In this document: positions 49,119 to 52,463 of the stretch, in pieces | Position numbering within the stretch: position 1 is the stretch's first letter | Layout: the number at the start of each line of letters is the position of its first letter | DNA from: Fervidobacterium changbaicum | GTDB taxonomy: Bacteria; Thermotogota; Thermotogae; Thermotogales; Fervidobacteriaceae | Direction: 5' to 3' | DNA: 64,000 nt | Assembly: GCF_004117075.1 (NCBI RefSeq) | Contig: NZ_CP026721.1 | Coordinates: forward strand, 124,001-188,000 | Position numbers and translations under genes: made by a program | The notes under the pieces: generated by a model | What the model was told of the DNA's origin: nothing | The model's input: the letters and a program-made list of their open reading frames with translations, nothing else | Database searches by the model: none

Positions 49119-52100
49119 TCACATCCCACTGAACTGGAATTGCCCTGCTTTCGGATCAAGCAAGAAGAAGATATCTGATATATCCGTTAAGTAGAATTTA
49201 AAAGTAAGCTTATCCAAGTAATCCAACCAGTTGCCTGTTGCTTTGTACGATAAATCTGCGCCAATTAGAAGTCTCCAACAATGCAACGATTTGTCGAACG
49301 TTAGGTTAACACTTTCAAGAAGGTTTCTCGATGGATCGTATTTTAGTTTTACATAAACGTTTGGATCAATCGTTTTGTTGCTGATTTCAACAAGATACTT
49401 TCTTGTATTGTCAGTGTTATAAGAGACAACGTATTTTTCATCTTTTTTCTCCATGCTGTACGACAGACTCCAGGTTGGTTCTGCGTTTGCAGATCTCACA
49501 TAGTACGTTCCACTGAGTTTAGCAAGGTAATCGAACAAACTGAAAGAACCTGATACAGTTGCCCTCTCTATGTAGTCTGGTTTTTGATAAATCGTTGCAC
49601 TGAGATTCGCGTATTTTAACGTGTGAATGTACGTTGAGATTTGATTACCCGGAATTGTTGAGAACTGGAGTGAATAACTTGTTCCGATGTCTTGGAAGTT
49701 TAACCCTAAGTTGAAGTTCTGAACACCAAGTTTCGCTTTATCGTTATCGTAAGTTCCGGAAATTGAATTGCTTACTCCTACAGGGCCAAATTGCTCAGAG
49801 TACCTGATACTATAACTGTCTGGAAGCTGTTTGTTATTTGAGATGTCGACGCCCCTGCTCACTGATGCAGTTATCTTATCCGAGCTTAAACTGAAGGTAA
49901 ATCTGAGAACATTTTTATTGTTCGCCGCTGGTTCATCCAAGAATCCGTAAAATTGCTCCCAGCCACCTGTCAACCTAAAAGGGCCAAGAATGTAACTCAG
50001 ATCAGAAATATACCTATCAGACATTCCGACAGATTCTGTTTTTGTTGCAGCAATGTTTGACACACCTTTTATGTTAAACGTATAATTGAAATTCAACGTA
50101 AACGCGTCCCACTTAAAAGTCCACGGGAACTGGTAAGTGTATGTAAAAGTTCTATTCTGAGCGCTTTCGCTTAAATTCCCCGTTAGACTGAAGTTGTACC
50201 TTGTATTGTTGTTAGAAAGAGCCAAAGTGTACGTTGTTCGGTATGTTGACGTCCAGTCTCTTTCCAAAGATGTCAAATATCCATCCGTTCTTAATTGCAC
50301 CGTATCATCCAAATTGAGTGTAAGGTTATTGGAGTTGAGCAAAACAAAAGAGAGATTCCTAAATCCACCATTGAGATAGACAATGGTGTCAGTCAGTCGC
50401 CCGTCGTACATTATATAAGGCTTGAAGTAGAACGGAGATTTTGGGTCCTGATATGTCAACCCAACTTTTTGATAGTAGTTACTATCGGCCAAGTAATTAC
50501 CTTCAAAATAAAGTACGCCATCGTACTTATAGTAGACCGCATTATTCACATATCTGTACGTAAGTGGGAAGATAGTAAATTCAAATTTGTTACTTTTCAT
50601 GTCAAATGAGACTCTTTGCTGCTTATTTACACTATCGTTTGCTTGGAAAGTTACATTATCTGTCCCCAAAGTGAGTTTAGTACTCCAATTGTTGAGAGTA
50701 AAAGCAAAAGTTTGAGAGACTCCAAGCGTTTGGCCAAAGGTAAAAGTTAAAGAATAGGGTGATTCACCTTGGAGTGCAGTTACAAATACAGGGTAAGGAA
50801 AAACAGGAACGCCAAGAACTACAAGGAATGAATTAGTAGCTATGATGTACTTGTTTTCTAAGACATAGACCTCTTCAGATTGAATGGTATAGTGGGGTTC
50901 TTCAAAGTTACAGGTGGTTATAGCCGGATTGCGTATCTCTACAAGCATTTTTGCTTCGTCTGTGATGTTTTCAACCTCTATCTCCGAGCCGTGAACGTAT
51001 ATAGGTACGTTCTTACCTTTGTAGTTGTAGTTATAAACCGTCTTCGCATTGAGCACAAGAACTCTGCTCGTTTCAAAATAGTAAACTAAGGATTTTGCAA
51101 AGTATTTCCTATCACCGTCGTAAAACGACACGTTTCCTACAGCATATACTGTTTTTACTTTTCCATCCTCCAAAGTAGCGGATGCTTCGTCGCATTCGAG
51201 CTTGTACTTATCCCACGTCATTGTAATGCCGTTTTTCAAAGACACCAAATTTTCTGAAAAATCAGCGATGTTAGCGTTTACTTTCAAGTCTGCTGCGAAC
51301 CCTACTGATGAGAAGATCAGTGAAAGTGAGATTACTACTAATAACATAGTGAAAAATCTACTCAGCACTTCCCTTGCCCTATAAGCTACAGGTGTATCCA
51401 TGAACAGATAAAGAAGAAAACCTACTACTGCAAATACGAGGTTTGGTAACCAAGTTGCCAATACCGGGTCCATTAAACCTTCCTTTCCCATACCGGAAAG
51501 CCAAGCTCCAGAGCCTTGGTAAAGCACAACAAGAACGAATGTCAAAATTACACCCCAAGATTTACTTGTTAAACCAAAAAGCAACGATATTGGAAGCCCA
51601 ATAAGGACTATAACCAGAGAGCCAAGTGCATTTGCATAACGCTGATGTAATTCCACGGTTAACGACGCAGTGTTTATGCCTAACTTTTTGTACGTTTCAA
51701 GCTGTTCTCGAAGTTCCTTTGACGTCTTATCGCGAGTTGTCTTATAGGCTCTGAGCATTTGTTCGATTTCTCCAGCGACATCTAATTTCATCTCTCTAAA
51801 TTGCATATCCAGTTTGAGAAATCCTGTTTCCAGTTCAACAACGTACATATTACCATCGAGTAGGTACCAGCCGTCTTGTCTTTTCATAACTTTCTTTGAA
51901 GTTACGATCTGTTCGTTCCCTTCCTCGTTTCTAAATAGAACAACATCGTACAATTCCCCTTTTTGCTTGTCGTACTGTTTTACATAAAAATAGACATCCT
52001 TCTCAAGTTCTACGAGCATATTAGTCTTAATAACCGTTTCCGGAGATTGAAGAATATATTGATTGAGTACTTGGGACGACTTGTAATTCGCGTTTGGAAC

Positions 52101-52463
52101 AACGTAATCGTTCAATAGCCATGCGAAAAATCCCAGGATCAGCGCTAAGATCAAAAACGGAGTCACAAGCCGTTTGGACGAAATCCCGTGCACCAGTATG
52201 GCTGTAATTTCCCTATTTGTTGACATTTCGCTGATAACCCAAAAGATCGCAAAAAGCACACCTACTGGAATGCCAAGTACGGTAAAGTAGGGTATATTGT
52301 ACGCAACAAATAACAAGAGTTTCGAAAACCCGACTCTGTTTCTGATTATATAATCAGAAATCTGATACAACCATTCAACGCTCACGAAAACTATGAAACC
52401 AGCAAGACCCATGAAAAAAGGTTTAAGGGATTGTTTGAGAACGTATTTTGTAAGAGTTTTCAG
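49119..52463 (-). CDS. Fusion of an LptF/LptG-type inner-membrane permease with an LptD/OstA-type outer-membrane protein
   Basis: 1114 residues from CTG 52463, 8 bases after AGGAGG; from there the protein reads LKTLTKYVLKQSLKPFFMGL, a normal LptF/G N-terminus, whereas the first ATG (52412) would cut off the start of helix 1. Residues about 1-350: six-helix LptF/G (YjgP/YjgQ) permease with its middle beta-jellyroll (KQYDKQKGELYDVVLF). Then a signal-peptide-like helix (LSRFFTMLLVVISLSLIFSS, cleavage near GFAAD, about residue 391). Residues 391-560: OstA/LptA-like domain; ITTCNFEEPHY matches the Cys-containing start of LptD. The remaining 550 residues are alternating beta strands, barrel-like. 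Possible processing or internal start at about 51377 (GTG). Known LPS transport would need all three, here on one chain. Confidence 0.82.
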   Translation of the reverse strand: MKTLTKYVLKQSLKPFFMGLAGFIVFVSVEWLYQISDYIIRNRVGFSKLLLFVAYNIPYFTVLGIPVGVLFAIFWVISEMSTNREITAILVHGISSKRLVTPFLILALILGFFAWLLNDYVVPNANYKSSQVLNQYILQSPETVIKTNMLVELEKDVYFYVKQYDKQKGELYDVVLFRNEEGNEQIVTSKKVMKRQDGWYLLDGNMYVVELETGFLKLDMQFREMKLDVAGEIEQMLRAYKTTRDKTSKELREQLETYKKLGINTASLTVELHQRYANALGSLVIVLIGLPISLLFGLTSKSWGVILTFVLVVLYQGSGAWLSGMGKEGLMDPVLATWLPNLVFAVVGFLLYLFMDTPVAYRAREVLSRFFTMLLVVISLSLIFSSVGFAADLKVNANIADFSENLVSLKNGITMTWDKYKLECDEASATLEDGKVKTVYAVGNVSFYDGDRKYFAKSLVYYFETSRVLVLNAKTVYNYNYKGKNVPIYVHGSEIEVENITDEAKMLVEIRNPAITTCNFEEPHYTIQSEEVYVLENKYIIATNSFLVVLGVPVFPYPVFVTALQGESPYSLTFTFGQTLGVSQTFAFTLNNWSTKLTLGTDNVTFQANDSVNKQQRVSFDMKSNKFEFTIFPLTYRYVNNAVYYKYDGVLYFEGNYLADSNYYQKVGLTYQDPKSPFYFKPYIMYDGRLTDTIVYLNGGFRNLSFVLLNSNNLTLNLDDTVQLRTDGYLTSLERDWTSTYRTTYTLALSNNNTRYNFSLTGNLSESAQNRTFTYTYQFPWTFKWDAFTLNFNYTFNIKGVSNIAATKTESVGMSDRYISDLSYILGPFRLTGGWEQFYGFLDEPAANNKNVLRFTFSLSSDKITASVSRGVDISNNKQLPDSYSIRYSEQFGPVGVSNSISGTYDNDKAKLGVQNFNLGLNFQDIGTSYSLQFSTIPGNQISTYIHTLKYANLSATIYQKPDYIERATVSGSFSLFDYLAKLSGTYYVRSANAEPTWSLSYSMEKKDEKYVVSYNTDNTRKYLVEISNKTIDPNVYVKLKYDPSRNLLESVNLTFDKSLHCWRLLIGADLSYKATGNWLDYLDKLTFKFYLTDISDIFFLLDPKAGQFQFSGM

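Follow-up and report, generated by a model that had tools for sequence, protein, structure and literature searches.

An LptF/G permease and a divergent LptD-like protein encoded in one reading frame in Thermotogota and Bipolaricaulota: a variant Lpt-type exporter and probable polyprotein

A gene of Fervidobacterium changbaicum, lying in a window of 64,000 nucleotides (the whole stretch of DNA that was analyzed), raises the question of how a single reading frame can supply both the inner membrane permease and the outer membrane component of an exporter and of what such an exporter would carry. Thermotogota have been reported to lack lipopolysaccharide (LPS) genes (PMC5007114), and Thermotogae nearly all outer membrane lipid export genes (PMC8871954); hence, the source of the lipid in the outer leaflet of the toga is open. 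Lpt orthologs are attributed to Thermotoga maritima by PMC10353723, with citation of Putker 2015. No mention of the fusion was found in the literature searched, which did not include Putker 2015. We class the fusion as a variant of the Lpt-type exporters, and we examine below its parts, its distribution, and the probable fate of its product.

The fusion gene and its frame

The preliminary description of this locus had placed one 1,114-residue frame at positions 49119 to 52463, which stands; it had not given the strand, which is minus. The open frame runs from 52463 down to 49122, and the plus strand over 49119 to 52463 is riddled with stops. The gene and its parts are as follows.

49119 to 52463, minus strand: lptFG-lptD fusion gene, 1,114 codons plus stop (49121 to 49119), without an internal stop
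52472 to 52477, minus strand: Shine-Dalgarno sequence AGGAGG, 8 nt before the CTG start (52463 to 52461), from the sequence and aligned starts
51405 to 52463, minus strand: LptF/LptG permease domain, residues 1 to 353, from PF03739, PDB LptF chains, and model helices
51783 to 52019, minus strand: periplasmic beta domain of the permease, residues 149 to 227, from strands in the full-length model
51294 to 51392, minus strand: junction (basic stretch and hydrophobic segment, with GFA/AD as candidate signal peptidase I site), residues 358 to 390, from an alignment of 32 fusions
49122 to 51293, minus strand: LptD-like part, residues 391 to 1114, from LptA/LptD profile matches, the AlphaFold model, and Foldseek
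50859 to 51293, minus strand: OstA/LptA-like N-terminal beta domain, residues 391 to 535 (boundary approximate), from profile and model
49128 to 50846, minus strand: beta-barrel of the LptD part, residues 540 to 1112 (boundary approximate), from continuous model strands
50910 to 50912, minus strand: Cys518 of the LptD-type TTC motif, kept in 32 of 32 sequences
49278 to 49280, minus strand: Cys1062 of the C-terminal HCW motif, kept in 28 of 32 sequences

The start codon is CTG, as it is in the close relative L032, and the aligned start codon of other relatives is TTG, ATG, or GTG. The first ATG of the frame is codon 18, and a start there would truncate the first transmembrane helix (TM1); a gene search restricted to ATG, GTG, and TTG begins the fusion at that codon and misses much of TM1. 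An LptF/G permease followed by an LptD-like part without an intervening stop, as originally described, is borne out by the same fused frame in dozens of genomes; a stop codon or frameshift between the parts, which would have refuted it, is absent, and the frame recurs across independent genomes. We excluded chance or sequencing error as the source of the fusion, given the identical fused architecture in dozens of independent genomes.

A TilS-like frame (47753 to 49159, minus strand), whose earliest possible start is the TTG at 49159, overlaps the gene at its 3′ end. Upstream lie genes for NAD kinase-, YggT-, and RuvB-like proteins, which are conserved beside the fusion in about 24 to 26 of 39 loci.

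The permease half

Residues 6 to 352 match the Pfam family PF03739 (LptF_LptG) with E = 6.5e-75, at 252.8 bits against a curated cutoff of 27.9 and with positions 1 to 351 of the 353-position profile covered, which confirms the earlier assignment of this half. Solved LptF chains in the PDB also match it (from E = 1.6e-8). Neither of the NCBIfam equivalog cutoffs is reached by the permease half (LptF, 142.3 of 230 bits; LptG, 134 of 240), and, judged from its sequence, it is a member of the LptF/G superfamily that can be assigned to neither the LptF nor the LptG equivalog. The gene is the single LptF/G-type copy in the 2.27-Mb genome; because there is no second such gene, a homodimeric permease is inferred.

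The LptD-like half

The preliminary description had taken the second half to be of the OstA/LptD type, and the Pfam profiles support this only in part. Searched alone, this half has a weak match to LptD_N (E = 0.021). LptD_N is matched by 14 of 28 family members (best, 7e-8), and PF04453 (LptD) by none of the 28 fusion members. A naturally split relative, L184, shows weak LptD matches in both Pfam and NCBIfam, with an E of 0.0042 for PF04453, which is under the cutoff. The single-sequence Pfam search was set aside as an uninformative test of this half, and profile and fold were used instead. A profile built from 28 relatives matches the PDB chains of LptA (1.6e-6) and LptD (7omm, 5.8e-6; 8h1r, 7.4e-5) and aligns the invariant TTC motif with the LptD cysteine motif of the PDB chains. 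The AlphaFold model of the LptD part is almost entirely beta (pLDDT, 86.6; pTM, 0.54), and in a Foldseek search of the PDB LptD structures take the first 15 places (E = 4.2e-18 to 7.2e-13), ahead of unrelated barrels. The TM-scores of the model against LptD structures are low, about 0.27 to 0.42, and for this reason the relative arrangement of the parts of this half is uncertain.

Many Bipolaricaulota have the motifs TTCxC and FCxxCW, that is, four cysteines in two pairs, for which there are no disulfide data; the LptD of Escherichia coli likewise has four cysteines in two pairs. By the criteria of profile, predicted fold, and cysteine motifs, the second half is a divergent LptD-like protein, whose outer membrane location is inferred; the name was chosen because PF04453 is unmatched.

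Distribution and natural splits

Our survey covered Thermotogota (103 genomes) and Bipolaricaulota and no other phyla. PF03739 is found in 100 of the 103 Thermotogota genomes, in 38 of 38 genera, nearly always in a frame of fused length, and both halves are present at the loci examined. Whether the fusion is kept across the phylum had been left for checking; it is, with one ORF of at least 980 aa (980 to 1,494 aa) in 88 of the 100 genomes with a match. Short LptF/G frames result from contig ends (G001, G022, G031, G034, G062, and G097) or from frame breaks inside a domain (G041, G044, G078, and G093). One Thermotogota family (L043, L044, and L045) has longer fusions, mostly of 1,434 to 1,494 codons, with the surplus in the LptD half.

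The true splits in Thermotogota are two. In G054, the TGA of lptFG is followed within a few bases by the ATG of lptD, whose product carries a signal peptide of its own (MHLRYKSFSPVLFIISLFFIILSGTKVFSA). G005 has no fusion: two adjacent LptF/G genes, one LptF-like and one LptG-like, are found there, and a separate contig carries LptD as a standalone 849-codon frame that has a signal peptide. A FastTree tree nests G054 within a fused family; the two G005 copies are each other's sisters (0.88) and fall with the fused members of the family of G005 (0.97). The Thermotogota splits therefore look secondary, and the two-gene permease of G005 seems, from the sequences, to have been remade by duplication, so that this genome apparently has a reexpanded Lpt system. 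The LptF-like, LptG-like, and standalone LptD frames and a 621-codon multi-OstA protein of G005 are located at L051:9410-11743, L095:8753-11302, and L177:5294-7159.

The occurrence of the fusion in Bipolaricaulota had not been foreseen. A scan of named genomes gave eight loci from this phylum, all eight of them fused; 76 of the 90 main LptF/G frames reach 950 aa or more, and the LptD part is present in the 16 fused loci read in detail. Shorter frames are due to contig ends (G108, G113, G171, and G202) and, in G175, to an unexplained break. G150 and G151 are true splits, with lptB nearby and then lptFG and lptD (in G150, the order is the LptA/C-like gene, lptB, lptFG, and lptD), an arrangement that suggests the route by which the fusion arose. 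Whether the fused or the split state is ancestral in Bipolaricaulota is left unresolved by the FastTree tree, in which support is low.

The junction

The signal-peptide-like segment that had been proposed between the halves, ending near GFAAD, is recovered at residues 358 to 390 in the alignment of 32 fusions, with a conserved DT (residues 356 and 357) preceding its basic residues. The cut is predicted after A390, at the candidate signal peptidase I site GFA/AD, without protein data. Junctions vary strongly among genera, with GFS, AFS, VFS, GYS, LFG, or VWA as recurrent endings in the 32 fusions, and resemble the N-terminal signal peptides carried by the phylum's secreted LptA-like protein (for example, TTGFS/K versus FAFS/K). 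A strict pattern, [AVSTG][FYW][SAG], is met by 17 of the 32 junctions, compared with 6.9 in shuffles, and none of 1,000 shuffles reached as high a count; because the 32 sequences are related, this excess is only moderate support. A loose cleavage-site pattern discriminates weakly (25 of 32 junctions versus 19 after shuffling), and in Bipolaricaulota junctions the A-x-A pattern is not more common than in shuffles. The junction is as hydrophobic as TM6 (19-residue mean, 2.12 versus 2.06), so that hydrophobicity alone cannot separate a signal peptide from a membrane anchor. In the full-length model, a continuous helix spans residues 358 to 383, and the confidence minimum, which is also the longest low-confidence stretch, falls at residues 382 to 390. 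In roughly one-third of the 32 members, the uncharged stretch of the junction does not exceed 17 residues. Signal peptidase I is encoded in the genome.

Other exporter components and candidate cargo

The preliminary description had proposed looking for lptB, lptA, and lptC elsewhere in the genome and had envisaged an exporter working without lipid A; both points hold. LptB is present (G000:C1:238122-238820; 301.5 bits, above the NCBIfam cutoff), as is one LptA/LptC-like protein of 223 aa (L066:8674-9345), besides which and the fusion no other OstA-type protein was found in the genome. At least one OstA-type match is present in 92 of the 103 Thermotogota genomes. LptE (PF04390) was found in none of the 103, an absence not anticipated earlier. 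LpxC is likewise found in 0 of 103 Thermotogota genomes, hence no canonical lipid A, and we speak accordingly of an Lpt-type rather than an LPS exporter; it was also not found in the four Bipolaricaulota genomes tested. An OmpH/Skp-like gene adjoins lptB, and the LptA/C-like gene lies near genes for a PEGA domain protein, an Omp-alpha-like SLH coiled-coil protein, and a patatin-like phospholipase (L066:4295-9345).

LptF/G-LptA-LptD systems of known cargo move acylated lipids, which are held in a hydrophobic groove. Diglucosyl diacylglycerols and decanoyl-diglucosyl diacylglycerols are among the lipids of T. maritima, and phosphoglycerol was the only head seen on its membrane-spanning lipids (PMC8788747), which leaves the glycolipids as extractable candidates for the cargo. 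A glycolipid cargo has already been suggested for organisms of this type (PMC10353723). We infer, without direct evidence, that acylated diglucosyl-diacylglycerols are the best cargo candidates in Thermotoga.

Proposed mechanism and alternatives

We consider it probable that the product is a polyprotein that signal peptidase I divides into a permease subunit, acting as a homodimer, and an LptD, which together export a non-LPS glycolipid. The whole frame would be translated, and residues 1 to 353 would be inserted into the inner membrane with six helices. After TM6 the chain would be cytoplasmic, and the basic stretch and hydrophobic segment of residues 358 to 390 would serve as an internal signal peptide reentering Sec. 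A cut after about residue 390 would release LptD for assembly in the outer membrane. The permease, as the sole one of LptF/G type, would be powered by LptB, and the single standalone LptA/LptC-like protein would form the periplasmic bridge. The earlier polyprotein idea is favored by the natural splits at the junction, where the freed LptD has its own signal peptide; cleavage remains an inference, with no protein-level evidence, as do the homodimer, the cargo, and the direction of transport. The most likely origin would be the loss of the lptFG stop codon beside lptD in an lpt operon, with the LptD signal peptide retained.

If the chain were instead left uncut, the helix of residues 358 to 383 would be a seventh transmembrane helix and the product a covalent bridge from the inner membrane permease to the outer membrane barrel. 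The TM6-like hydrophobicity and the continuous model helix suit such an anchor, an uncut 1:1 product is compatible with the sequence, and the A-x-A frequency in Bipolaricaulota junctions, no higher than in shuffles, is a point against cutting; the MlaD of Veillonella, in which an inner membrane component has a C-terminal beta-barrel domain, is a precedent (PMC10665443). However, the natural splits fall exactly at the junction and leave LptD with an ordinary signal peptide at its N terminus, the junction ends like a signal peptidase site, the uncharged run of roughly one-third of the 32 members is on the short side for anchoring in a membrane, and the model is least certain just after the helix. 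A very long bridge would also be needed for a detached toga, and only one OstA-like domain lies between helix and barrel. We regard an uncut chain as unlikely, if not to be lightly dismissed, and its extension to a covalent trans-envelope lipid exporter that also tethers the outer envelope to the cell body as unlikely too. The preliminary description had further raised an internal start (GTG near 51368), which would yield two products and make the fusion merely apparent. In-frame start codons do occur near the junction in the F. changbaicum genome, but they are unconserved and without a good Shine-Dalgarno sequence, and Thermotoga and two other genera have no in-frame start codon at the junction. 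Because several genera lack internal starts, the second half must be translated through; with the permease and LptD part in a continuous frame in dozens of genomes, separate initiation is very improbable.

The remaining alternatives concern the identity of the second half and the cargo. That an LptF/G-like permease is joined to a barrel with an unrelated task, such as a porin or an assembly factor, could be argued from the failure of PF04453 in all 28 members and from a match of one member to Porin_4; set against the LptA/LptD profile matches, the 15 best structural matches, the TTC and HCW motifs, and the weak Pfam and NCBIfam LptD matches of the split relative, it is scarcely credible. A glycan, polysaccharide, or other surface polymer as cargo would fit a phylum without LpxC, and there is no direct evidence on the cargo; we find it quite unlikely in view of the acylated lipids moved by the systems of known cargo and the acylated glycolipids of T. 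maritima (PMC8788747).

Relation to known systems and gene neighborhoods

With the LptB2FG-C-A-DE system of Proteobacteria, the system described here has in common an LptF/G permease, the LptB ATPase, an OstA-like periplasmic protein, and the LptD fold and cysteine motifs. It differs in having one permease gene rather than two, a single chain for permease and LptD, no LptE, one LptA/C-like protein, and no LpxC. The Lpt cluster of diderm Firmicutes (Negativicutes and Halanaerobiales) shares the single LptF/G, LptB, and OstA domain proteins; those organisms make LPS and no recognizable LptD was found in them (PMC5007114), whereas here LptD is fused to LptF/G. In Borrelia burgdorferi, also a diderm without LPS, Lpt is a proposed glycolipid exporter of six separate proteins, and the words fusion and fused are absent from that paper (PMC10353723). 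The MlaD of Veillonella parvula likewise combines an inner membrane lipid transport part with a C-terminal beta-barrel in one chain, but it belongs to the Mla system, is unrelated to LptF/G, and has been described as bridging the envelope, not as a polyprotein that is cut (PMC10665443).

The phylum-wide LptFG-LptD chain, probably a polyprotein, provides with LptB and one LptA/C-like protein a defined and testable machine of very few parts. A polyprotein would fix the supply of permease subunit and LptD at 1:1 and so provide two LptD molecules per homodimeric permease; its division by signal peptidase into products for both membranes would, if true, be unusual in bacteria. The fusion common to Thermotogota and Bipolaricaulota is a candidate rare genomic marker of shared ancestry. 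Besides Thermotogota, Bipolaricaulota are the phylum for which polar detachment of the outer membrane has been cited (PMC10665443), and the distribution ties the fusion to this type of envelope.

Bipolaricaulota and one Thermotogota family have an EF-G-like gene next to the fusion (L140:9300-11321 and L058:1240-3366), and G005 has one (L095:6590-8698) beside its standalone LptD. The permease genes in L051 and L140 have a LigA-like gene close by. These EF-G-like and LigA-like neighbors may represent an ancestral gene order.
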